A stretch of DNA of 64,000 nt from Megasphaera sp. MJR8396C (GTDB lineage: Bacteria > Bacillota > Negativicutes > Veillonellales > Megasphaeraceae), in contig NZ_KQ958144.1 of assembly GCF_001546855.1 (NCBI RefSeq), positions 1 through 64,000 on the forward strand. Direction: 5' to 3'. Of this stretch, positions 20,820-41,412 are shown piece by piece. A model generated the notes under the pieces. It was given only the letters and a program-made list of their open reading frames with translations. It was not told where the DNA came from and did no database searches. The position numbers and the translations under genes were made by a program. Position 1 is the first letter of the stretch. Each line of letters opens with the position of its first letter.

Positions 20820-23243
20820 ATGTTCAATAAATCCAGGTTAAAGGAAATTCTGACTCAGTATAAAAAAGATTTTCTGCCGAATCATTGGAAAGAGGAAAAA
20901 TACAAATGGGAAGCCATCAAATGTTTTCAGGATAATTGGGATGTAGATGCAGCTGATTTTGCAGCTATGTTGTCAAAGTCACTGGCCGAGACCGATAATT
21001 TGCTTACGTCTATGAATAATTTCCCCAAGGGAATGATCCTCGGCTTTGCTAAGCATGAACCCGAGGAAGTCCGAGCCATGTATCTAGATCTCTTTGATGA
21101 AGATAAGGAGGTTTATGATCGTATCCATGTTTTTAAGACAAAGTCTGCTATTCTTCGCGATAAATATGGTAAGGAGGGCGACCAGCACTACCAGCATGAA
21201 AATGCCATAACCGTCTACCTATGGCTGCGATATCCGGAAAAATACTACATCTATAAGTTCGGAGAGGTGAAAGCCGTATCGGACGTATTGGAAAGTGGCT
21301 ATCGGTTTAAGAAAGGTTCCTATAGGGATAATCTTCGAAATTTTTATGAATTCTATGATGAAATCTGTGAAGAACTGAAGCAAGATACGGAGCTTGTGGA
21401 GCTCTTTCGAAGTCAGCTCACGGACACCTGCTATCCGGATCCGGAGCTGAAAACACTGACCTTCGATGTCGGATTCTATATCAGTCGGGACTATGCCAAA
21501 GGTCATCATTCCGGGGAGGATGGGTCCCCAAGCGAGGGATGGCAGCCAACCCCGTCGGACTATGATCCGGGATTGACGGAACAGGATTGGGGGACGCTTT
21601 TACAGGATAAGGACGTTTTTAACGAAAGTTGTCTCCAAATTATGAAGCGGCTCAAAGAGTGTGGCGGAGCCGCTAGTTGTACACAGCTGGCCGCTACATA
21701 CGGGGAATCAAAGAATTTCTATAACGCCAATTCATCGGCTTTGGCAAGGCGAGTCGCGGAAAAGACCGGTTGTCCCCTGCCGCCTGATCGTGATTCTAGA
21801 GATTCCAAATGGTGGCCCGTCTTATATGTGGGGAAATACGCATCCAAAGAAGATGGTGGCGCTTTTATATGGAAACTGCGTGATCCCCTTTCAAAGGCCC
21901 TTGATCAGGTTGATTTGAGTGATGTTGACCTTTTCGCAGCGTCTGCTGATGAAAAGGCTGAACCTTCCTACTGGTGGATGAACGCCAATCCAAAAATCTG
22001 GAGTTTTTCGAATCTGCAAGTTGGCGAAGTTGAGGCTTATACCCTATATAACGAAGACGGGCATAAGCGAAGAATTTTCCAGCACTTTATCGATGCCAAG
22101 GCCGGTGATTTCGTTATCGGTTATGAAGCAAACCCGGTAAAGCAGATCGTGGCGCTTGTCCAAGTTAAAGAAGGACAGGACGGGTCGAAGATATATTTTG
22201 AAAAGACGGAAGGATTGTCTTCTCCCATAGACTATCAGACGCTCAAAGAATGTCCGGAACTAAAGGATATGGAATTTTTCCGAAATCCGAACGGCAGCTT
22301 TTTCAAGTTGACTAAGGCTGAGTATGAATTCATCATGGATATGATTCGCGATGAAAATCCCTTGAAGATGGATGCGGCGATGCAACCCTATACAAAAGAT
22401 GATTTTCTGTCTGAAGTCTATCTGTCTGCGGAGGACTATGATCGTCTGACGGAAGTGCTGTTTAATAAGAAGAACGTCATCCTGCAGGGGGCGCCCGGCG
22501 TCGGCAAGACCTTCTGTGCTAACCGACTGGCCTATTCGCTGATGGGAGAAAAGAACGACCATCAGATTGAATTCATTCAGTTTCATCAGAGTTATTCCTA
22601 TGAGGATTTCATGATGGGGTATAAGCCGAATGAGTCGGGCGGTTTTACGTTGAAAACGGGGGTATTTTACCGGTTCTGTCAGAAGGCCGCCAATCAACGG
22701 GATAAGAAATTCTTCTTTATCATTGATGAAATCAACCGCGGTAACTTGAGTCAAATTTTTGGGGAACTGTTAATGCTAATTGAAAAAGACTACCGTGGTA
22801 AGACGATCACCCTTGCGTATAATGGCATACCCTTTTCTGTACCGGACAATCTCTATATCATCGGCATGATGAATACGGCTGACCGAAGCCTGGCCATGAT
22901 TGATTATGCCTTGCGGCGGCGGTTCAGCTTTTTTGAACTTGAACCGGGATTCGATTCAAAGGGGTTCAACGCCTATAAGGATAAGCTGGCGAATGAAACC
23001 TTTAATGAACTCATTTCTAAAGTCAGCGAACTAAATGAAGAACTTCGGCGAGATAAATCCCTGGGGAAGGGATTCTGTATCGGACACAGCTATTTCTGCG
23101 GTAGGACGAAAGATAACTGTACCGACAGATGGATGCAGGCCGTTGTCGATTATGATATTTTGCCCATGCTTTCGGAATACTGGTTTGACGATGACAGCAA
23201 GGTGCAGCGTTGGGATACGATCCTGCATGGAGTCTTTCAATGA
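20820..23243 (+). CDS. mcrB: McrB-like AAA+ GTPase with EVE domain
   Basis: An 807-residue protein. Residues 1-210 are an uncharacterised N-terminal region; about 225-370 resembles a wHTH-like unit ending in WPVLYVGKYA and FIWKLRDP; about 382-515 is an EVE domain (YWWMNANPKIWSF, NEDGHKRRIF, AGDFVIGYEANPVKQIVAL), a modified-base reader; 525-800 is the McrB AAA+ motor with Walker A GAPGVGKT (about 556-563), Walker B FFIIDEINRG (about 631-640) and the McrB signature MMNTADRS plus RRRFSF. With McrC it should form a modification-dependent (type IV) restriction complex that translocates and cuts DNA carrying modified cytosine or another base. Base composition is visibly more A/T-rich than the flanking core genes, consistent with acquisition by transfer. 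Confidence 0.9.
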   Translation: MFNKSRLKEILTQYKKDFLPNHWKEEKYKWEAIKCFQDNWDVDAADFAAMLSKSLAETDNLLTSMNNFPKGMILGFAKHEPEEVRAMYLDLFDEDKEVYDRIHVFKTKSAILRDKYGKEGDQHYQHENAITVYLWLRYPEKYYIYKFGEVKAVSDVLESGYRFKKGSYRDNLRNFYEFYDEICEELKQDTELVELFRSQLTDTCYPDPELKTLTFDVGFYISRDYAKGHHSGEDGSPSEGWQPTPSDYDPGLTEQDWGTLLQDKDVFNESCLQIMKRLKECGGAASCTQLAATYGESKNFYNANSSALARRVAEKTGCPLPPDRDSRDSKWWPVLYVGKYASKEDGGAFIWKLRDPLSKALDQVDLSDVDLFAASADEKAEPSYWWMNANPKIWSFSNLQVGEVEAYTLYNEDGHKRRIFQHFIDAKAGDFVIGYEANPVKQIVALVQVKEGQDGSKIYFEKTEGLSSPIDYQTLKECPELKDMEFFRNPNGSFFKLTKAEYEFIMDMIRDENPLKMDAAMQPYTKDDFLSEVYLSAEDYDRLTEVLFNKKNVILQGAPGVGKTFCANRLAYSLMGEKNDHQIEFIQFHQSYSYEDFMMGYKPNESGGFTLKTGVFYRFCQKAANQRDKKFFFIIDEINRGNLSQIFGELLMLIEKDYRGKTITLAYNGIPFSVPDNLYIIGMMNTADRSLAMIDYALRRRFSFFELEPGFDSKGFNAYKDKLANETFNELISKVSELNEELRRDKSLGKGFCIGHSYFCGRTKDNCTDRWMQAVVDYDILPMLSEYWFDDDSKVQRWDTILHGVFQ

Positions 23244-24310
23244 CAAAGGATAAGCGCATCTTTATAAAAAATATCTATTACATGCTGTCCTATGCCTTCG
23301 CCATACTCAGACAATCTACCTATGAAGAAATCGAGAAAGAGCCTTTTGAGAATATCAACAATCTGTTTGCGGCGATTCTTTCTAAAGGAATCGGTTTGCA
23401 GCTCAAGCAAGGCCTTTACCGTGAATATATTCATCGCGTAGAAAATCGATACGTCGTTCGCGGAAAAATCAATCTGCCGGGGACGCTGAAAAATCGGTTG
23501 CAGCACCGTATTGCGGTGACCTGTGACTATGGAGACCTTTCCGAGGACAACTTACTCAACCGGATTCTAAAATCGACGGTTTGCTTGCTGTTGAAGCAGG
23601 AAGATGTACAGGACAAGTATAAGGCAGAACTCAAGCGGGAAATGCTGTTTTTCTCGAATGTTGCCGAAATTGATTTAAAACAGGTCCGATTCTCGGACAT
23701 CTGCTTTCAGCGAAATAATCGCACGTATCAGATGCTGCTTGCCATTTCTCAACTGCTGATAGAAGGCTCGCTTCTGACAACCGAAGAAGGCAAGTTTCGT
23801 CTGATGGGCTTTTTGGATGAACAGCGAATGAGTCGCCTGTATGAGAAATTTATTCTCGAATATTATGTACAAGAATTTGGCCAGCGGCTAAAAGGATTCT
23901 CCGCACGGGCGTCGCAAATTCCCTGGCAGCTCGATGATGGTTTTGATGCCTTGCTTCCCGTCATGCAGACCGATATCACACTGACGTACGGTTGTCAGAC
24001 ACTCATCATCGATGCCAAATATTACCATCGGATACTGCAGACCCATTTTGACGTAGAGACCCTTCATTCCGGCAACTTGTATCAGATCTTCACGTATGTG
24101 AAGAACAAAGACGCCGAGGTTGCCGGAACAGGGCACCAGGTTTCTGGAATGCTGCTCTATGCGAAAACTGATAGCGACGTGGTGCCCAATCATGTCTATC
24201 ATATGAGCGGCAATCAAATTTCTGTAAAAACACTCGATTTGAATCAGCCCTTTTCGAAGATTGCCGAGCAGTTGGATGGCATTGTAAGGAATCATTTCGG
24301 AATATTGTAA
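23240..24310 (+). CDS. mcrC: McrC-like restriction nuclease subunit
   Basis: Start at ATG 23240 overlaps the mcrB stop (ATGA), giving 356 residues. The N-terminal part starts RIFIKNIYYMLSYAFAIL, typical of McrC/5-methylcytosine restriction proteins. The C-terminal half carries a PD-(D/E)xK nuclease core: Asp245 in QTDITLTYG and Asp258-x-Lys260 in LIIDAKYY, followed by a QIFTYVKN helix. McrC activates McrB GTP hydrolysis and supplies the nuclease. No methyltransferase or other defence gene adjoins the pair. Confidence 0.9.
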   Translation: MTKDKRIFIKNIYYMLSYAFAILRQSTYEEIEKEPFENINNLFAAILSKGIGLQLKQGLYREYIHRVENRYVVRGKINLPGTLKNRLQHRIAVTCDYGDLSEDNLLNRILKSTVCLLLKQEDVQDKYKAELKREMLFFSNVAEIDLKQVRFSDICFQRNNRTYQMLLAISQLLIEGSLLTTEEGKFRLMGFLDEQRMSRLYEKFILEYYVQEFGQRLKGFSARASQIPWQLDDGFDALLPVMQTDITLTYGCQTLIIDAKYYHRILQTHFDVETLHSGNLYQIFTYVKNKDAEVAGTGHQVSGMLLYAKTDSDVVPNHVYHMSGNQISVKTLDLNQPFSKIAEQLDGIVRNHFGIL

Positions 24311-26100: not shown

Positions 26101-27372
26101 AGGCGGCAGAGTTATCAATCCGGCTATGCAGCAGGATGAAATTTGCGATATCCTCATTGAAAATGGAAAAATTAAAGAAGTCGGTGCCAATCTCACGGCA
26201 GACAAGGCAGAAGAAGTTTTTGACGCTTCCGGTCTCGTCGTAGCACCGGGCTTCATCGATATGCACGTCCATCTCCGTCAACCCGGCCAGTCGGGCAAGG
26301 AAACGATCGAAACGGGAACTCAGGCAGCGGCTGCCGGCGGCATTACCCGCGTAGCCACCATGCCTAACACCAAACCGGTCATCGATTCGGCCATTGTCGT
26401 CGACGGCTTGAAGTATAAGATCGAACACGAAGCGAAGGTTAAGGTAGAAATTATCGGCGCCATTTCTAAAGGCCAGCAGGGCCAGGAATTGTCGGCCATG
26501 GGCGCGATGGCCAAAGAAGGAGTCGTCGCTTTTTCCGATGACGGCCACTACGTCGAAAATTCCGACTTCATGCGTAAAGCCATGGAATATGCCAGCATGT
26601 TCCACAAGATCATCATCGACCACTGCGAAGATGACAACCTCATCGAAGGCGGGAATATGCACGAAGGCGTCGTATCGAATGAATTGGGCATGAAAGGCCG
26701 TCCGGCCGTTGCCGAAGACATCGCCGTTGCCCGCGACATCTTCTTGGCAGAAGCGACGGGAACACCGGTCCACATCGCCCACATCAGCACCAAGAACGCC
26801 GTCGACCTCGTCCGCCAGGCTAAAAAGCGCGGCGTCCAGGTTACGGCAGAAGTTACGCCGCAGCACCTCATCTTTACCGATGAAGCCCTGCGCACCTTTG
26901 AAACGCGCTACAAAATGAATCCGCCGATCCGCTCGGACATCCACCGCGATGCCTGCGTCGAAGGGCTTAAAGACGGCACCATCGATGCTGTCGTTACCGA
27001 CCATGCACCCCATGAATGGGAAGAAAAAGACCAGGAATTCAATTTGGCACCCAGCGGCTTCGTCGGCCTTGAAACGAGTGTCGGCGCTATGCTGACCCAT
27101 TTGTATCATACGGGCATCATCGACCTCATGAGCCTGGTCAATGTCATGTCGACGGCTCAGGCCAAGATCCTCAATCTGGATGCCGGCGTCATTGCACCGG
27201 GGAAAGATGCCGATTTAACGTTCCTTGATCTCGATAAAGAATGGACCGTCGATTCCTCGAAATTCTATTCCAAGGGAAAGTCGACTCCTTTTGATGAAAT
27301 GATCTTCAAAGGGAAGGCGGCAGCGACCATCGTCAATGGTAAATTTGTGATGAAAAACGGGGAGGTTTTATA

Positions 27373-27373
<1 letters not shown>
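26078..27373 (+). CDS. pyrC: Dihydroorotase, class I
   Basis: A 431-residue metal amidohydrolase. DMHVHLRQPGQSGKETI supplies the first metal histidines, HCEDDNLIEGG and HIAHISTKNAV later ligands, and TDHAPHEWEEK the catalytic aspartate. It cyclises carbamoyl-aspartate. Start may be ATG 26078 or TTG 26084; GGAGG ends only a few bases before the ATG, so the TTG has the better spacing. Either way it lies inside the pyrB end. Its stop shares a base with the carA start. Confidence 0.96.
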
Positions 27374-28434
<1,061 letters not shown>

Positions 28435-28435
28435 C

Positions 28436-31639
<3,204 letters not shown>

Positions 31640-31670
31640 GGTTACAGGCCTTGAATCGGTCTGCTAATAC

Positions 31671-31704
31671 AGAAGTCTCTCACAATCGTGGGAGGCTTCT
31701 TTTT
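31671..31704 (+). terminator. Terminator of the pyrB-carB operon
   Basis: AGAAGTCTCTCAC (31671-31683), loop AATC, GTGGGAGGCTTCT (31688-31700), then T tract. Confidence 0.85.
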
Positions 31705-31800
31705 ATGCCCGCAGTTTTGATATGGACCGGCAAGGTGGGATCGGGTTTTGTAAGGAGAAATTATGCTATAATAAACATAATTACAGAAAGGATGATGATC

Positions 31801-32277
31801 ATGAAATTAAAGCACAGCTTACTTGCGGTGACCTTTGGCGCCGCCTTGACCTTTGGCAGCATCTTTGGCGCCCAGGCCTTCTTCAACAGTCCCTTGGCAG
31901 CCAACAGTAATTACCGGCCCATCAACTTCGGCATGGGCTACGAAATGTACGTCGACCTCAGTTCCTTAGAAACCATTAAAGATAACGGCCAGGGCTGGAT
32001 CTTTAAGGTCAATGTCTTCCGCTCGCCGGAAGATTCGGGACGCATCGAAGGGACGTATACCCTGACCTATAAGATTTTCCGCGGACAGGCCTGGATATAC
32101 AATGACTCGACCAATACCTGGCTGGAAATCCCCATGCGGAAGAAAGAACTGAAGCATAAGGATATTGCCGACTTCGTCACGGTCAACCTCTGTTACCGCC
32201 AGAAGACGGGTCAGTATTTAAACGATGACTACGGCTATGTTCAGGGGATGGAACGCTATTACAAGGGGGAGTCGTAA
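31801..32277 (+). CDS. Secreted protein of unknown function
   Basis: ATG 31801 is about ten bases after AGAAAGG (nearer ATGs at 31792 and 31795 are too close), giving 158 residues. A signal peptide is evident (KLKHSLLAVTFGAALTFGSI, cleavage after AQA). The mature part is small and rich in Tyr and Trp (MYVDLSSLETIKDNGQGWIF, YKIFRGQAWIYNDS). I do not recognise the family. Similar-looking short exported proteins are frequent in Negativicutes. Spacing to the following ldcA start is a few bases. Confidence 0.65.
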   Translation: MKLKHSLLAVTFGAALTFGSIFGAQAFFNSPLAANSNYRPINFGMGYEMYVDLSSLETIKDNGQGWIFKVNVFRSPEDSGRIEGTYTLTYKIFRGQAWIYNDSTNTWLEIPMRKKELKHKDIADFVTVNLCYRQKTGQYLNDDYGYVQGMERYYKGES

Positions 32278-32292
32278 CGGATGCGGCCGTTC

Positions 32293-33200
32293 ATGTTCCG
32301 GCGCCGCTGAAAACCGGTGACTACATCGGCATCGCGGCACCGGCAACGCATGACGAGGGGCAGGATATTTCAAAGGCGGTGGCACGTCTGAAGCAGGCCG
32401 GTTACCGGGTAAAAGTCATGCCGACGACGTCCGGGTCCTACGGCTTCTTTTCCGGAACCGATGAGGCGCGGGCCAATGATGTGAACGCCTTATTCCATGA
32501 CGATGACGTAAAGGCCATGGTCTGCCTTAATGGCGGTTACGGCTCGGCACGCATCCTCGATAAACTCGATTATGACTATATCGCAGCCCATCCCAAATGG
32601 GTCGTCGGCTTTAGCGATATTACGGCCCTTCAGGTGGCCTTGTGGGAAAAGAGCCATCTGGTTACGGCCAACGGCCCGTTGATGGTTACTTTAGGGGATG
32701 CGAATGATTATACAGCCAATCAATTTTTTAACGGTCTGACCCGGTCTGACTGGCACGGTAACTTGGCCTTGCCGGCTGGACGCAAATTGAAAACGATCGT
32801 TTCCGGGACGGCAAAAGGCCCCATCGTAGGTGGTAACTTGACCCTCATTGCCTCTCTCGTCGGTACACCCTATGCTCTCGACGGCACAGGGTGTATTTTG
32901 GTGCTCGAAGATACGGGAGAAAGCTCGTACCGTATCGACCGCATGATGAATCAGCTCTGGCAGAGCGGCCTCTTATCGCGGGTTTCTGCCATTGTTTATG
33001 GCGATTTTACGGCTTCTTCTCACGACGAAGGTGACTTTACGACGGATGAGGTATTGGATTATTATGCTCACTTGGCTCAGGTACCGGCCATCAAGGGCCT
33101 TCCCGTTGGCCATACGTCTAATAAGGCCTTTATTCCGTACGGTATCACGGTTTATCTTAATGCTAGTGGGCCGGAAGCGTCCTTGTCTTTTCAGGAATGA
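32293..33200 (+). CDS. ldcA: LD-carboxypeptidase, start out of frame (apparent 1-base frameshift)
   Basis: The body is a complete S66 LD-carboxypeptidase: nucleophile Ser in VGFSDIT, Glu in VLEDTGESSYRID, His in GLPVGHTSNKAFIPYG; it removes the terminal D-Ala of the peptidoglycan tetrapeptide. The homologous N-terminus (PAPLKTGDYIGIAAPAT) is in frame only from 32298 and has no ATG, GTG or TTG before GTG 32379, which would cut off that strand. ATGs at 32281 and 32293 with a good AAGGGGGAG site are one frame off and reach TGA at 32308. Adding one base at about 32296-32300 restores MFPAPLKTGD. It is either a recent frameshift, a sequencing error or an unusual start. Confidence 0.8.
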
Positions 33201-33254
33201 TAAGTTTTGACGAAAAGGTATAATGATAATTATGTAAAAACAATGCATATTTTA

Positions 33255-33298
33255 TTGACAAAACATTTTAATTCAACTATAATGAATTAAAATTCAAT
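33255..33298 (+). promoter_or_regulatory. argC promoter with twin ARG boxes
   Basis: TTGACA (33255-33260), 17-base spacer, TATAAT (33278-33283). The palindrome TGAATTAAAATTCA (33283-33296) matches the ArgR consensus and overlaps the -10. A second, half-conserved box (33260-33277, ending ATTCA) lies exactly three bases upstream, the canonical ArgR pair spacing. Arginine-dependent repression is expected. Confidence 0.85.
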
Positions 33299-33357
33299 AA
33301 AACATCAAGGTATAAGCTATTTAGAGGTATAAATTGTGTTTCTGGGAGTGATGCATT

Positions 33358-34302
33358 GTGAAGACGAAAGTATTTATAGATGGACATGAGGGGACGACAG
33401 GCCTTCGGATTCATGAACGCCTGAGCCAGCGTCAGGATATCGAATTGATTCCCATCGCTGACGAACACCGCAAGGACCCCGATGCCATCCGCGCCTGCCT
33501 CAAAGCCGCCGACATCGCCTTCCTTTGCCTTCCCGACGATGCGGCTGCTGAAGCCGTCAAATTGGCAGAAGGCTGCAACGTCCGACTCATCGATACGTCG
33601 ACGGGCCGGCGGGTAGCACCGGGCTGGACCTACGGCTTCCCTGAATTGTCGAAGGCGCAGGAAAAAGCCATCGCCCACAGCGATTTCGTCGGCAATCCCG
33701 GCTGCCATGCCAGCGGCGCCATTTCGATTTTGCAGCCCTTGACGGCAGCGGGATTGGTCCCGGCCGATTATCCGGTGACGGCCTTTTCCCTGACCGGGTA
33801 CAGCGGCGGCGGTAAGAAGATGATCGCCCAATATGAAGGCCATAAGAGCGCTGACCTTTTGGCACCGCGTCAATACGGCCTGAGCCAGCAGCATAAGCAT
33901 TTAAAAGAAGTCGTTTCCATCTGTCATTTGGCACAGGAACCGGTCTTTACGCCCATCGTCGATGACTATTACAGCGGCATGGAAGTGATGATTCCTTTCT
34001 TCAGCCAGCTGTTGACTAAAAAGGTTACGGCAAAAGACGTGTGGAATATCTTAGCCGAGCATTATGAAGGCTGCCCCTTCATCCACGTCCTCGACTTTGG
34101 GGTCGACAAGGGCGGTTTCATCAGTGCCAATGACATGAGCGACTACGATGACATGGAAATCGTCGTGACCGGCAATGACCAGCGCATCATGGTCACGTCT
34201 TTATTCGATAACCTGGGAAAGGGCGCTTCCGGTGCGGCCATTCAGAACATGAACCTCATGATGGGCATCGATGCAACGACAGGATTACAGTTAAAACATT
34301 AG
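33358..34302 (+). CDS. argC: N-acetyl-gamma-glutamyl-phosphate reductase, short type
   Basis: The 314-residue enzyme starts at GTG 33358 and belongs to the shorter ArgC type rather than the roughly 340-residue form. KVFIDGHEGTTGLRIHERL binds NADP; FVGNPGCHASGAI holds the catalytic cysteine; SLTGYSGGGKKMI is the conserved glycine-rich turn. It reduces acetylglutamyl phosphate to the semialdehyde. First gene of the arg operon. Confidence 0.94.
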   Translation: MKTKVFIDGHEGTTGLRIHERLSQRQDIELIPIADEHRKDPDAIRACLKAADIAFLCLPDDAAAEAVKLAEGCNVRLIDTSTGRRVAPGWTYGFPELSKAQEKAIAHSDFVGNPGCHASGAISILQPLTAAGLVPADYPVTAFSLTGYSGGGKKMIAQYEGHKSADLLAPRQYGLSQQHKHLKEVVSICHLAQEPVFTPIVDDYYSGMEVMIPFFSQLLTKKVTAKDVWNILAEHYEGCPFIHVLDFGVDKGGFISANDMSDYDDMEIVVTGNDQRIMVTSLFDNLGKGASGAAIQNMNLMMGIDATTGLQLKH

Positions 34303-34317
34303 AAAGGTGGAGTCAGT

Positions 34318-35037
34318 ATGAGTCAGGTTTATGATAACTTTGGCGTACCGCAAGGATTTCAGGCTGCCGGTACGTACAGCGGATTATGCAGCAGCCGTGT
34401 GAAATTAGATGTCGCCATGATCGTAAGCCGACGAGACTGCTCCATCGTAACCGATACGCAGCAGGGGATGACGGCCCGGTCCGGAAAGGTCCTGGTACTG
34501 CACAATGGAATGGCGCTTCCAGAAGGCCTGAGGGGGCGCGAAATTTCAGAGGAAGTCTGTCAGGCCGTCGGTACCTGTATCGAAGAAGCTCCGGCTTCGG
34601 TAGCCCTCGTCGCCAGCGGTGCCAAGGGCCAGTATTTCCGGCCATCCCTCTTGATCCATAGTCTGAAAAATCTGACGGCCGGCCTCGATACGGATAGTCA
34701 GCCTGTCGAAGCCGTTATCGACAATGGCGGTGACGTGTCGGCCCAGACCGTTCTTCTGGCAGATAACGGCGGGGCCTTAAGCGGCATTGCCGCTGACGGG
34801 ACGGCGGACAGCGACGGCTTATGCGTCATCATGACCGACGCCGAAGCCGACGGCGCTATGATTGAAACGGCACTGGCTCAGGTCAAGGCTGATATGGATA
34901 CGGAGAATTTTACCTTCATCGTCATGGCCAATGGGGGAGCCGGCAGTCAGCCGGTCGGCCAGGATGACTTTTCCGAAGGAATCGAAGCATTACTGGTAAA
35001 ATTAGGCTTTCAACATGCTTTGAAAGCGTGCAGTTAA
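34318..35037 (+). CDS. Short ArgJ-like protein lacking the ArgJ nucleophile region
   Basis: A 239-residue protein at the argJ position between argC and argB. Its start (GVPQGFQAAGTYSGLCSSRV) and the segments VLVLHNGMALPE, VALVASGAKGQYFRP and IVMANGGA can be laid along the first 260 or so residues of ArgJ (ornithine acetyltransferase, usually near 400 residues). The autocleavage motif KGSGMI...ATML is gone: where the Thr should be there is ADSDGLCVIMTDA, and the DGDTSTND motif is degraded to IDNGGDVSAQ. The C-terminal half is missing. The frame is intact and well translated-looking, so it is not simple decay. Function unknown; it cannot be an ordinary ArgJ. Confidence 0.75.
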   Translation: MSQVYDNFGVPQGFQAAGTYSGLCSSRVKLDVAMIVSRRDCSIVTDTQQGMTARSGKVLVLHNGMALPEGLRGREISEEVCQAVGTCIEEAPASVALVASGAKGQYFRPSLLIHSLKNLTAGLDTDSQPVEAVIDNGGDVSAQTVLLADNGGALSGIAADGTADSDGLCVIMTDAEADGAMIETALAQVKADMDTENFTFIVMANGGAGSQPVGQDDFSEGIEALLVKLGFQHALKACS

Positions 35038-35055
35038 CTAGGGGGAAGACAATAT

Positions 35056-35964
35056 ATGTTCAAAAGAAGTGATCTCGTTTCAGAGGATGTAAAAGCCGTG
35101 ACCAATGCCCAAAAGGCGCAGATTTTGATGAATGCCCTGCCATACATCAAAAAATACAACGGAAAAATCGTCGTCGTCAAATACGGCGGCAATGCCATGA
35201 TCAATGAAGACTTGAAGCGGTCGGTCATGGGCGATATCGTCTTATTGAACCTCATCGGCGTCAAAGTCGTCCTGGTCCACGGCGGCGGTCCGCATATTAA
35301 ATCGGCGCTGGATCAATTGGGCATCGAATCGAAGTTTATCAATGGCCTGCGGGTGACCGACGAAGCGACGATGAAGGTCGTCCAAATGGTCCTGGCCGGC
35401 CAGGTCAATAAGGATCTGGTTAATCTCATCGGCTCCATCGGCGGCAAGGCCATCGGCCTCTGCGGCATCGACGACCAGATGATCAAGGTCCGCAAACAGA
35501 GCGACGAACTGGGCTATGTCGGACGCATTACCGACGTCGACGTATCCATCATTCAGGATAACCTCGATAAAGGTTATATCCCGGTCATCTCGACGATCGG
35601 GACCGATACCAATGGCCAGGCTTACAATATCAATGCCGATACGGCTGCGGCTCAGATTGCCGGCGCCCTAAATGCCGAATGTATGCTGTCCATGACCAAT
35701 ATCGACGGCGTATTAAAAGATCCGTCCGATCCCGATTCACTGTTGACGGAAATTACCCTTGAACAGTCTCGTCAGTTAGAGCAGGACGGCATCATTGCCG
35801 GCGGCATGATTCCCAAAGTACAGTGCTGTACCGATGCCATCAAAGCCGGTGTCAAGCGGGTGTTTATCATCAACGGCACCGTACCTCACGCCATTCTCAT
35901 TGAAATGCTGACCGAAGAAGGCTTGGGAACGATGTTCGTCGGCCACTATTCGTTAGGGAAGTAA
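35056..35964 (+). CDS. argB: Acetylglutamate kinase
   Basis: A 302-residue amino-acid kinase. KIVVVKYGGNAMI (near 37) and VVLVHGGGPHIKSALDQLG (near 74) bind ATP and substrate; AGGMIPKVQCCTDAIKAGV and a C-terminal EEGLGTMF are typical. The N-terminal extension (about residues 1-30, helical) resembles that of arginine-inhibited hexameric kinases, suggesting feedback control. It is 18 bases after the ArgJ-like gene. Confidence 0.96.
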   Translation: MFKRSDLVSEDVKAVTNAQKAQILMNALPYIKKYNGKIVVVKYGGNAMINEDLKRSVMGDIVLLNLIGVKVVLVHGGGPHIKSALDQLGIESKFINGLRVTDEATMKVVQMVLAGQVNKDLVNLIGSIGGKAIGLCGIDDQMIKVRKQSDELGYVGRITDVDVSIIQDNLDKGYIPVISTIGTDTNGQAYNINADTAAAQIAGALNAECMLSMTNIDGVLKDPSDPDSLLTEITLEQSRQLEQDGIIAGGMIPKVQCCTDAIKAGVKRVFIINGTVPHAILIEMLTEEGLGTMFVGHYSLGK

Positions 35965-36025
35965 GGCTGTTCTTTTGGTACACTGGATTGTCGACCCGGA
36001 TTAGGGCAAAAAGGAGATACAGAAC

Positions 36026-37198
36026 ATGGCAGAAGATTATAAAACTCTGGATAAACAATATATCGTCAACGTCTACAATCGGATCGGTGCCGTCCTAGAC
36101 CACGGCAAGGGAGCCACCTTATACGACGTAGAGGGGAAAAAGTATATCGACCTCAGTGCCGGCATTGCCGTCAATATCTTTGGCGTCTGTGACGACGAAT
36201 GGATTCAGGCCGTCGAAACGCAGCTCCATAAATTGAGCCACATTTCGAACGTCTTTTACACGGAACCGCAGACCGTCTTGGCCGAAAAATTGTGCCAAAA
36301 GACGGGGATGAAGAAGGTGTTCTTCTCGAATTCCGGTGCCGAAGCCAATGAATGTGCCATTAAGACGGCCCGGAAATATTCTCACGATAAATATGGCGAC
36401 GGCCGCCATACGATCATCACCTTGAAAAATAGTTTCCATGGCCGGACCTTAGCGACCCTGACGGCCTGCGGCCAGGACTCTCTCCATCAGGACTTTGGTC
36501 CCTTCGTCGACGGTTTCGTTTACGCCGAAGCCGATAATTTTGACGACGTCAAACACTTATGCGAAACGAATAAGGTCTGCGCCATCATGATGGAAATGGT
36601 ACAAGGCGAAGGCGGCGTCCATCCCCTCGATAAGGATTTTGTCAAACAGGTGGAAGCTTACGCCAAGGCTCACGACATCCTGATCGTCGTCGATGAAGTC
36701 CAGACCGGCAACGGCCGTACGGGATACCTCTATGCCTATATGGGCTACGGTATCGAACCGGATATCGTCTCGACGGCTAAAGCCATCGGCGGCGGCCTGC
36801 CCTTAGGCGTCACCCTGTTTGCTTCTTCGACGGAACATACCCTGACCGACCACACTCATGGCTCGACCTTTGGCGGCAACCCAATCTGCACAGCCGGCGC
36901 CATTTCCATCATCGACCGACTGACGCCGGAACTCATGGAAGAAGTCCAAAAGAAGGGCCAGTATATTAAAGAAGAATTGGAACCGTGCCAGCACGTCGAC
37001 CACGTATCGGGCATGGGCCTCATGATCGGCGTTGCCCTGAAAGACAAAGATCTGAGTGACGTTGTCGAAGGCTGCGTCGCAAAAGGCGTCCTGGTCCTGA
37101 CGGCCAATGGCCTGCTCCGGCTCCTGCCGCCCCTCAACATCTCCTGGGATGACTTGAAAGAAGCCATTGCTATTGTGAAGAAGGTCATCGATAAATAA
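36026..37198 (+). CDS. argD: Acetylornithine aminotransferase
   Basis: The 390-residue class III aminotransferase shows FSNSGAEANECAIKTARKY for cofactor phosphate, NSFHGRTLATL, VVDEVQTGNGRTGYLYAY for the pyridine Asp, and the PLP lysine in STAKAIGGGLPLG. It converts acetylglutamate semialdehyde to acetylornithine. Last arg gene here; the deacetylation step and argFGH are elsewhere. Confidence 0.95.
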   Translation: MAEDYKTLDKQYIVNVYNRIGAVLDHGKGATLYDVEGKKYIDLSAGIAVNIFGVCDDEWIQAVETQLHKLSHISNVFYTEPQTVLAEKLCQKTGMKKVFFSNSGAEANECAIKTARKYSHDKYGDGRHTIITLKNSFHGRTLATLTACGQDSLHQDFGPFVDGFVYAEADNFDDVKHLCETNKVCAIMMEMVQGEGGVHPLDKDFVKQVEAYAKAHDILIVVDEVQTGNGRTGYLYAYMGYGIEPDIVSTAKAIGGGLPLGVTLFASSTEHTLTDHTHGSTFGGNPICTAGAISIIDRLTPELMEEVQKKGQYIKEELEPCQHVDHVSGMGLMIGVALKDKDLSDVVEGCVAKGVLVLTANGLLRLLPPLNISWDDLKEAIAIVKKVIDK

Positions 37199-37268
37199 GG
37201 GAGAGGGGAAACTTATCGTACCTTCCTGCAAATAAAATATTTTTATAAAATCTCAGAGCTAGAAACAA

Positions 37269-37298
37269 GGCCCGGCGTAGATGCGCCGGGTCTCTTTC
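37269..37298 (+). terminator. Terminator of the arg operon
   Basis: CCCGGCG (37271-37277), loop TAGATG, CGCCGGG (37284-37290), followed by TCTCTTTCT. Confidence 0.75.
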
Positions 37299-37318
37299 TG
37301 TATACGGAGCCTCCTTTC

Positions 37319-37347
37319 TTGCTATTGGCCGGTGAATTTCGTACAAT
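37319..37347 (+). promoter_or_regulatory. Candidate promoter of ornithine decarboxylase
   Basis: TTGCTA (37319-37324) and TACAAT (37342-37347) with a 17-base spacer, about 50 bases before the ATG. Confidence 0.6.
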
Positions 37348-37399
37348 ATGGCTATACCAGCAATTGGGTAGTTTTTGAAGCCAATAAGGAAGGCCATAC

Positions 37400-39559
37400 A
37401 TGAAACATTTAAAAATAGCTTACAGTTTTGACGTACAGTATTACTTTGTCGACAGCGACCGGGACATCGTGCCCATTGAAGAAACGGACTTTACCGATGT
37501 CGCCGTAGCCGTCCTGTCGGATCAGGATTTTTCTTATATTGACACCATTACCGAGACAGGATTCGGCATCCCCATCATGGTCATCATGCCCGGCGGTGAG
37601 AAACTGCCGGAAGCGTATATCGACAAGGTCGACGTCGTCTTGACGGAAGAAATGGTCAATAAGAGCCGTTGCATTGCCGCTGCCGAACGCTTGGCCGGCC
37701 GCTATGAACAGACGGTGCTGCCGCCCTTTTTTGCCGACCTCGTCGACTACGTCAATGAAAAGAATACGCCTTTTGACTGCCCGGGCCACCAAGACGGCTT
37801 ATTTTTCAAAAAGCATCCGGCCGGACGATACCTCTATGATTTCTACGGACCCCACATTTTCCAGTCCGATATTTGTAATGCCGACGTCACCTTAGGGGAC
37901 CTCCTCATCCATGAAGGGCCGGCCCTCGAAGCCCAGGACTTTGCCGCCGAAGTATTCCATGCCGATAAGACCTATTTCGTCCTCAACGGCTCGTCGTCGG
38001 CCAACAAGGTCGTGGCCAACGCCTTATTGGCCCCAGGCGATTTGGTCCTCTACGACCGCAACAACCATAAGTCCGTCGCCATCGGCGCCCTCATCCAGGC
38101 CGGCGCTGAACCGGTCTATTTGGAAACGGCCCGCAATCCCTATGGCTTCATCGGCGGCATCGACGCCCACTGCTTCGGTGAAGGCTATCTGCGTGAGTTA
38201 GCTGCCGAACGAAATCCTGAAAAGGCTAAGGCAAAACGGCCTTTCCGACTGGCCGTCATCCAGCTCGACACCTATGACGGCACGTTATACAATGCCCGTT
38301 ACGTCGTCGACCGCATCGGCCATCTCTGCGACTACATCCTCTTTGATTCGGCCTGGGCTGGCTATGAACAGTTTATTCCCATGCTCAAGGACTGCTCGCC
38401 TCTCCTCCTCGATTTACAGGACGACGATCCGGGCATCCTCGTCGTCCAGTCGGTCCATAAACAGCAGGCCGGGTTTTCCCAGGCTTCGCAGATCCATAAG
38501 AAGGACAATCACATCCATGATCAGAAGCGCTACTGCAACCACAAGGTATTTAACAATTCCTTCATGGCCAATGCTTCGACAAGTCCTTTTTATCCCATGT
38601 TTGCCACCATTGCCGTCAATGCCAAGATCCACGCCGGTGCTGCCGGCCGCAAGATGTGGCTGGACTGCGTAAAATTGGGTATCGACGCCCGAAAAGATAT
38701 CCTGCGCCGCTGCCATTATATCCGCCCCTTCGTAGCGCCTGTCGTTCACGGAAAGCTTTGGCAGGAAGGGGATACCGATGACATAGCTCATGATTTGGCT
38801 TACTTTACCTTTGAGCCCGGTGCCAAGTGGCACGCCTTTGAAGGCTACGGAGACGGTCAGTATCGCGTCGACCCCTGCAAGCTCCTGTTGACGACGCCCG
38901 GCATCGATGCCGAATCGGGAGAATATGAAGATTTCGGGATCCATGCCAATATCTTGGCGACGTACCTGAGAGGGAACGGCGTCATTCCTGAAAAGTGCGA
39001 TTTAAATTCCATTCTGTTCCTCCTGACGCCGGCAGAAAATAAGAATAAGATGCGCCTCCTCGTCTCCCAGTTGGTCCGCTTTGAACGCTTCGTCGATCAC
39101 GACGTTCCCATGCAGGAAGTCCTCCTCGGTGTCTACAACGCCCATCCGGACCGCTATGCCGGCTATACGATACGCCGACTTTGCCAGGAAATGCACGATT
39201 TTTATAAATCCCATCACGTCAAAGATTTACAGAAAAAACTGTTCCGCAAGGAATACTTCCCGGAATACGTCATGAGCCCCCAAGAAGCTCATCACTCCTT
39301 CGTCCGCGGCCAAGGCGAATTGGTTGCTCTCGACAATATCGAGGGCCGCATCGCCTTGGAAGGCGCCCTGCCGTATCCGCCGGGCGTCCTCTGCGTCGTA
39401 CCGGGCGAACGCTGGTCGAAGACGGCTGTTCAGTATTTCAAGGCCCTTGAAGAAGGCCTTAACGAACTTCCCGGATTTGCCTCGGAAATCCAAGGCGTCT
39501 ATTTGGAAAAAGAGGACGATGGCCGCATCCATGCCTACGGCTACGTCCTAAAAGAATAA
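37400..39559 (+). CDS. Ornithine decarboxylase, large bacterial type
   Basis: The 719-residue protein has the three-domain layout of fold-type I basic amino-acid decarboxylases: an N-terminal wing domain (1-110), a PLP domain and a C-terminal domain. The PLP lysine is in QSVHKQQAGFSQASQIHKKD (about residue 355), the form typical of SpeC/SpeF ornithine decarboxylases; FVLNGSSSANKVVANAL and FDSAWAGYEQF are also conserved. It makes putrescine. Placement right after the arg genes links ornithine synthesis to polyamines. Lysine or arginine as substrate is less likely. Confidence 0.85.
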   Translation: MKHLKIAYSFDVQYYFVDSDRDIVPIEETDFTDVAVAVLSDQDFSYIDTITETGFGIPIMVIMPGGEKLPEAYIDKVDVVLTEEMVNKSRCIAAAERLAGRYEQTVLPPFFADLVDYVNEKNTPFDCPGHQDGLFFKKHPAGRYLYDFYGPHIFQSDICNADVTLGDLLIHEGPALEAQDFAAEVFHADKTYFVLNGSSSANKVVANALLAPGDLVLYDRNNHKSVAIGALIQAGAEPVYLETARNPYGFIGGIDAHCFGEGYLRELAAERNPEKAKAKRPFRLAVIQLDTYDGTLYNARYVVDRIGHLCDYILFDSAWAGYEQFIPMLKDCSPLLLDLQDDDPGILVVQSVHKQQAGFSQASQIHKKDNHIHDQKRYCNHKVFNNSFMANASTSPFYPMFATIAVNAKIHAGAAGRKMWLDCVKLGIDARKDILRRCHYIRPFVAPVVHGKLWQEGDTDDIAHDLAYFTFEPGAKWHAFEGYGDGQYRVDPCKLLLTTPGIDAESGEYEDFGIHANILATYLRGNGVIPEKCDLNSILFLLTPAENKNKMRLLVSQLVRFERFVDHDVPMQEVLLGVYNAHPDRYAGYTIRRLCQEMHDFYKSHHVKDLQKKLFRKEYFPEYVMSPQEAHHSFVRGQGELVALDNIEGRIALEGALPYPPGVLCVVPGERWSKTAVQYFKALEEGLNELPGFASEIQGVYLEKEDDGRIHAYGYVLKE

Positions 39560-39570
39560 GCTTGTAAACG

Positions 39571-39614
39571 AAAAAAACACGATTTCTTCCGTGAAGGAAG
39601 AAATCGTGTTTTTG
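39571..39614. terminator. Bidirectional terminator between odc and metF
   Basis: AAAAACACGATTTCTTCC, loop GTGA, GGAAGAAATCGTGTTTTT; a near-perfect palindrome with A and T tracts that serves both convergent genes. Confidence 0.92.
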
Positions 39615-39624
39615 GTTGCTCGTC

Positions 39625-40479
39625 TTACAGCAGGTTTTTGACTGCTTCGGAAATTCGTTTGGCAATGTCCGGATTGTTCATGGTGTAGACGTGGATGCCG
39701 TCGACGCCGTTGGCCAGAAGGTCGGCAATCTGGTCGATGGCATAGGTGATGCCGATGTCGTACATGGCGTCGGGTTTGTCGCCGTATTTGGCAATGGCCC
39801 GCTGGAATTTGATGGGCAGGGTGGCGCCGCACATGGCGATCATGTTTTCGATTTGGCGCTTGTTGGTAACCGGCATGATGCCCGCTTCGATGGGCACCTT
39901 GATGCCGGCGATTTCACAGCGTTCGCGGAAGCGGTAAAATACGGTATTGTCGAAAAACATCTGGGAAATCAGTTCGCTGGCACCGGCATCGACCTTGGTC
40001 TTGAGGTTTCGGATGTCGGCAACGACGGTCTTGGCTTCGGCATGGCCTTCGGGATAGCAGGCGCCAGTGATGTTGAATTCCGGCTCTTTTTCCTTAATGA
40101 AGGCGATGAGGTCGCTGGCATGTTCAAAGCGATGGGACCGTTCTCTTCCCGGCGTTTCGTCGCCGCGAAGGGCCAGGATGTTTTCGATTCCCCGTGCTTT
40201 CAGCTCTTCTAAGGTTTCGAGGGCTTCTTCTTCCGTAAGGTAGATGCAGGGCATGTGGGCCACGGTTTCGCAGCCCAGGTTCTTTATATAGGTTGCAACT
40301 TCTGTCGTGCGGTTGCTGCCCTGGCCGCCGGCACCGCAGGTTACGCTGATGAAGTCCGGTCGGATCTTGCTCAGTTCATCCAGTGTGGGATATACGCTTT
40401 CGATGGGAGTATCTCGTTTTGGCGGGAAAACTTCGAATGAAAAGACTGTCTTTTTGGTAAAAAGCTCGTTAGTGTGCAT
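39625..40479 (-). CDS. metF: Methylenetetrahydrofolate reductase
   Basis: A 284-residue MTHFR. FSFEVFPPKRD with the catalytic Glu, PDFISVTCGAGGQGSNRT, and ILALRGDETPG for FAD are family marks; LISQMFFDN is also typical. It makes 5-methyl-THF for methionine synthesis. It lies about 100 bases after metQ on the same strand and is probably under the same SAM-I riboswitch. Slightly shorter than the 295-residue E. coli protein but complete. Confidence 0.95.
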   Translation of the reverse strand: MHTNELFTKKTVFSFEVFPPKRDTPIESVYPTLDELSKIRPDFISVTCGAGGQGSNRTTEVATYIKNLGCETVAHMPCIYLTEEEALETLEELKARGIENILALRGDETPGRERSHRFEHASDLIAFIKEKEPEFNITGACYPEGHAEAKTVVADIRNLKTKVDAGASELISQMFFDNTVFYRFRERCEIAGIKVPIEAGIMPVTNKRQIENMIAMCGATLPIKFQRAIAKYGDKPDAMYDIGITYAIDQIADLLANGVDGIHVYTMNNPDIAKRISEAVKNLL

Positions 40480-40509
40480 ACATCAATGTCCCCCTCAGAT
40501 CGTAAGAAG

Positions 40510-40545
40510 ATAAAGGCTGCCCCCATAGAGGCAGCCTCTTTTCTT
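40510..40545. terminator. Hairpin between metQ and metF
   Basis: GGCTGCC and GGCAGCC arms around CCCATAGA. The T-rich tract is on the plus-strand side (TCTTTTCTT), so for the minus-strand metQ-metF transcript it is only a weak terminator and may give partial read-through. Confidence 0.5.
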
Positions 40546-40581
40546 ATCTTTTATTATATTGAAGATTTTCGGTCCTGTCTA

Positions 40582-41412
40582 TTAGAAACTCGGTAAGATA
40601 GCGCCTTGGTACTTATCTTCGATGAATTTCTTGACTTCCGGAGACTGGAGCGCTTTGACGAGCTTCTGGATTTCCGGACGGTTTTCGTCGCCGTCACGAA
40701 CGACGAGGACGTTAGCATACGGCGAATCCTTCGGTTCCAGGAAGAGGGCGTCTTTCAACGGATTGAGGCCGGCTTCCATAGCGAAGTTGGTGTTGATGAG
40801 GGCGATGTCGACGTCGTCGATGGAACGGGGAATCTGAGCCGCTTCGAGTTCGACGAACTGGAGATTTTTATCGTTCTTTACGACATCCTGAACGGTAGAC
40901 GTGATGTTGCCGCCGTCTTTAAGGGTGATGAGACCGGCACTCTGGAGAATGAGGAGGGCGCGGCCGCCGTTGGTCGGGTCGTTGGGGATGGCGACTTTGG
41001 CGCCGTCAGCGAGGTCTTTCAGATCTTTGATTTTGCGGGAGTAAATGCCCATCGGTTCGACGTGGATCTTGGCGATGGCTTTTAATTTCGTGCCGTGTTC
41101 GCTGTTGAATTTATCGAGGTACGGCGTGTGCTGGAAGAAGTTGGCATCCAGTTCTTTGTCGTTTAACGCCAGGTTCGGTTTGACGTAATCCGTAAATTCG
41201 ACGACTTTGAGATCGACCCCTTCTTTGGCTAAGAGCGGTTTGATTTCGTTGAGGATTTCAGCGTGCGGAACGGGCGTAGCGCCGACGGTGACGGTGACAT
41301 TTTTGTCGGACGAAGCCGTCGTCTGGGAATCACTGCCGCAGCCGGCGGCTAAGAATGCGACGGCCATCAGGGCCGCAGCAGCGAGAACGGAAAGTTTTTT
41401 GAAATTTTTCAT
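40582..41412 (-). CDS. metQ: Methionine ABC transporter binding lipoprotein
   Basis: Start is ATG at 41412 (MKNFKKLSVLAAAALMAVAF) with AGGAGGC upstream; 276 residues. A lipobox LAAGC at about residues 23-27 marks it as a lipoprotein. VTVGATPVPHAEILNEIKP, ANFFQHTPYLDKFN and the VEPMGIYSRKIK region are NlpA/MetQ hallmarks. It binds methionine for an ABC importer. No metN or metI is present beside it, so its ATPase and permease are encoded elsewhere. The SAM-I riboswitch upstream supports methionine as ligand. Confidence 0.95.
   Translation of the reverse strand: MKNFKKLSVLAAAALMAVAFLAAGCGSDSQTTASSDKNVTVTVGATPVPHAEILNEIKPLLAKEGVDLKVVEFTDYVKPNLALNDKELDANFFQHTPYLDKFNSEHGTKLKAIAKIHVEPMGIYSRKIKDLKDLADGAKVAIPNDPTNGGRALLILQSAGLITLKDGGNITSTVQDVVKNDKNLQFVELEAAQIPRSIDDVDIALINTNFAMEAGLNPLKDALFLEPKDSPYANVLVVRDGDENRPEIQKLVKALQSPEVKKFIEDKYQGAILPSF

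Follow-up and report, generated by a model that had tools for sequence, protein, structure and literature searches.

A degenerate ArgJ descendant without catalytic residues occupies the argJ position in the arginine operon of Megasphaera

Results

Layout of the arginine operon

The window analysed here, a 64,000-nt stretch of DNA from Megasphaera sp. MJR8396C (contig NZ_KQ958144.1, positions 1 to 64,000), carries an arginine operon in which a short gene that we call X lies between argC and argB (Table 1). A sequence-only reading of this DNA had placed X in the argJ slot, and the ORF coordinates together with the profile matches of the neighbouring genes bear this out; ArgJ (PF01960, TIGR00120) has the same slot between argC and argB. 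The frame of X is intact, running from an ATG at 34318 to a stop codon at 35035-35037 and encoding 239 aa, and the ribosome-binding-like sequence GGTGGAG lies directly 5′ of the start. X is separated by 15 nt from the argC stop codon and by 18 nt from the argB start. Because a promoter-like site precedes argC and a terminator-like stem follows argD, argC-X-argB-argD looks like a single transcription unit. No Rfam match was found within positions 27000-41000 of the window. An Orn/Lys/Arg decarboxylase gene (window 37400-39559) adjoins the 3′ end of the arg operon and is kept in M. massiliensis (L017); it might serve polyamine supply.

Table 1. Features of the arginine locus and the transcarbamylase gene. 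Positions refer to the window unless a contig is given.
Feature	Position	Strand	Basis
X, ArgJ-derived protein of 239 aa, degenerate and lacking catalytic residues	34318..35037	+	ORF reading, profiles, alignment
argC type 2, N-acetyl-gamma-glutamyl-phosphate reductase	33358..34302	+	TIGR01851, E 2.1e-107
argB, acetylglutamate kinase	35056..35964	+	TIGR00761, E 4.5e-76
argD, acetylornithine aminotransferase family	36026..37198	+	TIGR00707, E 9.1e-124
promoter-like TTGACA-17-TATAAT (12/12) upstream of argC	33255..33283	+	consensus match only
terminator-like stem, 11 pairs, after argD	37268..37293	+	consensus match only
transcarbamylase with rewritten second-substrate motifs	G000:C60:31249-32196 (L118:9249-10205)	minus	motif reading, identity search

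Descent of X from ArgJ

Arginine synthesis by the energy-saving cyclic route has ArgJ as its defining enzyme. As a single sequence, the X protein of the window matches no Pfam or NCBIfam profile, and its comparison with the PDB gave a marginal match to the ornithine acetyltransferase 1vz6 (E 0.045); PDB matches to the MS2 coat protein and HGF were put down to chance. The relationship emerges at the level of the family, where 10 of the 12 X orthologs match TIGR00120 (best 8.3e-6) and eight match PRK05388 (best 3.5e-8). An hhalign comparison of the X alignment with an alignment of ArgJs from the same order gave 97.3% and an E-value of 1.7e-11, and a search of 380 genomes of the class with a profile of X found genes of ArgJ length (~405-425 aa) outside the family, down to 2.5e-16, those whose sequence was read being full-length ArgJs with their motifs intact. 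Weak second matches of X in five genomes were fructose-bisphosphate aldolase by eye and were set aside as chance. Common descent with ArgJ, in line with the ArgJ likeness noted in the sequence-only reading, is thus established by hhalign, the X profile and the TIGR00120 matches of the orthologs, and the family-level match is to ArgJ and not to some other family. By score, the matching X orthologs reach 15-25 bits against a PF01960 cut-off of 32, and X lies below every curated cut-off. An AlphaFold2 model of X built from 4 sequences had a pLDDT of 34.

The ArgJs closest to X come from one genus (g30) in another, neighbouring family (f5) of the class, with which X shares descent. There the operon order is argC-argJ-argB-argD and argC is likewise of type 2. 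The genes of the Megasphaera family are 55-58% (argC), 55-59% (argB) and 53% (argD) identical to those of the f5/g30 operon, whereas identity to ArgJ-bearing genomes of the same order is only 25-28% for argC and 42-47% for argB. Because argC and argB are nearer to the argC-argJ-argB-argD operon of the other family than to the ArgJ genomes of their own order, X is the argJ of a type-2-argC operon, eroded in place. The common ancestor from which Megasphaera and the sister genus derive possessed an argC(type 2)-argJ-argB-argD operon resembling that of the other family, and the argJ in it lost the active-site loops, the self-cleavage segment and the last ~140-165 residues to become a protein of ~240 aa.

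ArgJ elements missing from X

X and ArgJ share the blocks KGFxAxGxYxGI..DLALIxS, the helix region LC(Y)ITTDxAxxPxLLxxAL and the strand (A)NGxAG. It had been suggested that X follows the N-terminal part of ArgJ; the N-terminal blocks are indeed similar, but X aligns with roughly the first 265 residues of ArgJ, beyond the cleavage point, and so amounts to more than an alpha chain.

Motifs were compared with the ArgJs of f5/g30, the closest outside the family. The 13 residues around YTTNLVKGAP are absent from X, as is the TTN-APV loop; HNGxALP stands where ArgJ has NSGNANx; and the oxyanion motif STGVIG is replaced by (S/N/Y/T)G(A/V/D/I/S), that is (S/N/Y/T)G for STG, with Gly alone invariant across orthologs. 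The TTD of the ArgJ motif IMTTDT is lost. The nucleophile-bearing segment KGSGMIHPNMAT (GMxxPNMAT) is replaced and 4 residues shorter in 12/12 orthologs. Most of the ArgJ stretch FNMLSVDGDTSTND is gone, as is the DGDxSTND loop, and X also lacks KGSGM and the C-terminal motifs DGEGATK, EDPNWGR/ADANWGR and YDYVKINGxY (including YDYVKINGEY). The catalytic residues and motifs of ArgJ are missing in all 12 X orthologs. The nucleophile and the C-terminal part are therefore absent, as had been noted from the sequence, yet this is not the whole story, several further ArgJ motifs having gone as well.

In ArgJ, a Thr nucleophile and self-cleavage are established, with Ala199/Thr200 as the residues concerned in M. 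tuberculosis (PMC5887547). The monofunctional ArgJ of that organism is an ArgJ-fold protein of arginine synthesis, as X may be, but it keeps the nucleophile (Thr200), the self-cleavage and both chains (PMC5887547), whereas X, with 239 instead of ~405 residues, keeps none of these. Because the catalytic residues are lost, we predict that X lacks ornithine acetyltransferase and N-acetylglutamate synthase (NAGS) activity.

No second, split or frameshifted ArgJ

The position of X and its N-terminal similarity to ArgJ would also be expected of a full-length argJ that is frameshifted, misassembled or split, with the catalytic part encoded in a different frame or at another genomic site. A six-frame PF01960 search of the 17 genomes that make up our family sample (Megasphaera and the sister genus) found no match over the cut-off and hence no genuine ArgJ, and at E<=1 it returned the X copies and one 45-residue match, nothing else. 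The rest of the window's own genome contained no PF01960 match. A split ArgJ, with X as alpha chain and a separate beta chain, was accordingly rejected, as no C-terminal ArgJ half scored over the cut-off in the 17 genomes. All 12 orthologs are short and come from independent assemblies, no frameshifted full-length argJ lies at the locus in any related genome, argB begins 18 nt beyond X, and X itself reaches past the cleavage point. Unless the missing part is unassembled in every genome, the searches refute this explanation, and we regard it as extremely improbable. A separate instance of argJ decay is seen in a different genus of the order (G058:C8:57141-57724), where an N-terminal and a C-terminal piece of argJ remain but the middle is gone.

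Conservation, selection and occurrence

Orthologs of X occur in 12 genomes of the family as ORFs of ~227-242 aa with 29-87% identity to the window copy and no stops. The NG86 dN/dS of X against five genomes was 0.133, 0.173, 0.156, 0.161 and 0.211; for the neighbouring genes, in the pairs where it was readable, it was 0.014-0.118 (argB) and 0.067-0.178 (argC). X is under purifying selection that is weaker than on its neighbours, and with a dN/dS ~2-12 times that of argB it evolves faster than any other gene of the operon. The earlier view that X is an intact gene and no obvious pseudogene agrees with the ORFs and with dN/dS values of 0.13-0.21. Invariant positions number 37 and include T19, Y20, S21, R27, D31, S37, C41, H62, R72, E75, C81, S110, S115, T173 and D174, and the X-argB spacing ranges from 13 to 178 nt across genomes.

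ArgB is found over the cut-off in 14 of the 17 genomes, and 12 of these 14 have X, kept intact under purifying selection since it shrank; the three argB-less genomes all lack it. In G003 and G004 (loci L049 and L044), X is cleanly missing and argC abuts argB, with argC-argB-argD retained. The argB tree puts G003 beside G014 (support 0.82), the genome with the most divergent copy of X, and leaves G004 unplaced. Because G003 and G004 keep argC-argB-argD and the unusual transcarbamylase described below without X, the pathway does not always depend on X, an accessory gene that is open to loss and not indispensable. X was also sought in viral contigs and plasmids, and none was found there.

These patterns bear on a second explanation, by which X is a decaying relic: argJ would have become useless after a change of the pathway and would be slowly lost, perhaps held by translational coupling between argC and argB. 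X does evolve fastest within the operon, it is highly divergent in G014 and missing in the related G003 and in G004, and its spacing to argB varies. Its dN/dS is nevertheless far from 1, the ORFs stay intact in 12 genomes down to 29% identity, and what is conserved is the residues of the protein, not the spacing, and the locus has no Rfam match. Taken together, we consider slow decay fairly unlikely.

The remaining arginine pathway

Because no PF01960 match exceeded the cut-off in the 17 genomes, ornithine arises in some other way or is bypassed, which sustains the earlier suggestion that it must come by another route. ArgH was found over the cut-off in 15/17 genomes, with an apparent argG adjoining in the loci looked at. 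ArgE was found over the cut-off in 0/17 genomes; its absence is weakly evidenced because just 2 of 14 control genomes reach the same cut-off. An ArgE-like gene of the X-less G004 (230 bits) was not accepted as evidence of a replacement, its neighbour looking like an MFS transporter by eye. Genome G000 carries M20D CpsA-like amidohydrolases (L067-L069) and YgeY, and the M20D enzymes could act in deacylation. Among the PF00583 proteins that the genome encodes, none was recognisable as a NAGS.

A third explanation would make X catalytically active, with the active site moved to a new place and the ArgJ scaffold rebuilt around invariant Cys, His, Asp and Arg residues and performing N-acetylglutamate synthesis or acyl release. 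The lack of ArgJ, of an ArgE over the cut-off and of a recognisable NAGS would leave it a task, the gene is retained within the operon, and C41, C81, H62, R72, E75, D31 and S21 are invariant in 12 orthologs down to 29% identity. Against this, all catalytic elements of ArgJ are gone, X resembles no other acyltransferase or amidohydrolase, the two genomes without X keep argC-argB-argD and the transcarbamylase, and the M20D amidohydrolases could deacylate. We judge a new enzyme activity unlikely.

A family-specific transcarbamylase

No canonical ornithine transcarbamylase (OTC) scored over the TIGR00658 cut-off in any genome of the family. The window's genome encodes a transcarbamylase that reaches 205 bits against this cut-off of 281, and its counterpart is present in 14/14 argB-positive and 0/3 argB-less genomes. 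Within the family, identity to the copy of the window's genome is at least 78% (best piece), and the best match outside the family has 40% identity. The gene is in two pieces in G003 (two ORFs) and in G015, where the second piece is 66% identical. The motifs read SNRTY, DTWVDMEF and HDMPxHPGxE in place of the canonical STRTR, DxWxSMG and HCLPxxRGxE, in each copy that spans them. For DTWVDMEF and HDMPxHPG this means 13 of 14 genomes, G015 having been read for the first piece only. Elsewhere in the class, 20/20 carbamoyltransferases whose sequence was read have the canonical motifs.

The protein is closest to OTCs, with 1a1s as best PDB match (1.8e-44) and N-acetylornithine transcarbamylase (AOTCase) at about 1e-15. 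Because the second substrate of transcarbamylases is influenced by the SMG loop and the HxLP motif (PMC4581275), an altered second substrate is likely for the family enzyme. The same review proposes that the Asp of HDLP meets an alpha-amino group (PMC4581275). Taken alone, the additional acidic residues are no pointer to N-acetylornithine.

Discussion

The reading of X that we favour, with about even confidence, is that of an ArgJ pseudoenzyme devoid of ArgJ chemistry that may act in a rewired arginine pathway as an accessory protein, binding a ligand or a partner. X would be unable to transfer acetyl groups while probably retaining the core of the N-terminal ArgJ fold. In its most likely mode, non-catalytic X would bind an acylated intermediate and/or ArgB or ArgC and tune flux, the acetyl group would be handled by other enzymes, and the pathway would also use the family-specific transcarbamylase with its altered second-substrate motifs. 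Some points speak against this interpretation. A new active site would account equally well for the many invariant polar residues; a dN/dS ~2-12 times that of argB also fits a protein on its way out; and there are gaps at NAGS and at ornithine release for which no other gene could be named, one of which X might fill in the genomes that have it.

More tentatively, and with rather less confidence, the family might use an undescribed variant of arginine synthesis in which ArgJ has become a non-catalytic regulator or subunit of ArgB/ArgC, OTC a transcarbamylase for a new substrate, and the acetyl recycling of ArgJ is bypassed. Bacteroides, which makes arginine through succinylated intermediates, offers a precedent for such pathway gaps (PMC7311316). 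The Bacteroides type and the AOTCase/SOTCase enzymes resemble the Megasphaera family in lacking a recognisable ArgA/ArgJ or canonical OTC and in having a transcarbamylase with altered second-substrate recognition (PMC7311316, PMC4581275). They differ in that the Megasphaera-family transcarbamylase is nearest to OTCs and has its own motifs DTWVDMEF and HDMPxHPG, and an ArgJ remnant is not mentioned in the portion of the Bacteroides account considered here (PMC7311316). Our literature search returned no paper connecting ArgJ with a pseudoenzyme and nothing on the arginine genes of Megasphaera.

If the pseudoenzyme reading is true, the reduction of ArgJ to a non-catalytic protein, with the operon and argB, C, D, G and H persisting, would be a natural experiment in the change from an enzyme to a regulator or scaffold. 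X and the motif-rewritten transcarbamylase point to an undescribed arginine synthesis in common bacteria of the gut and rumen, for which current annotation would give the wrong call on arginine prototrophy. Elsewhere in the window (20820-24310), an EVE-AAA protein adjoins an McrBC-family protein, likely a type IV restriction (McrBC-like) pair.
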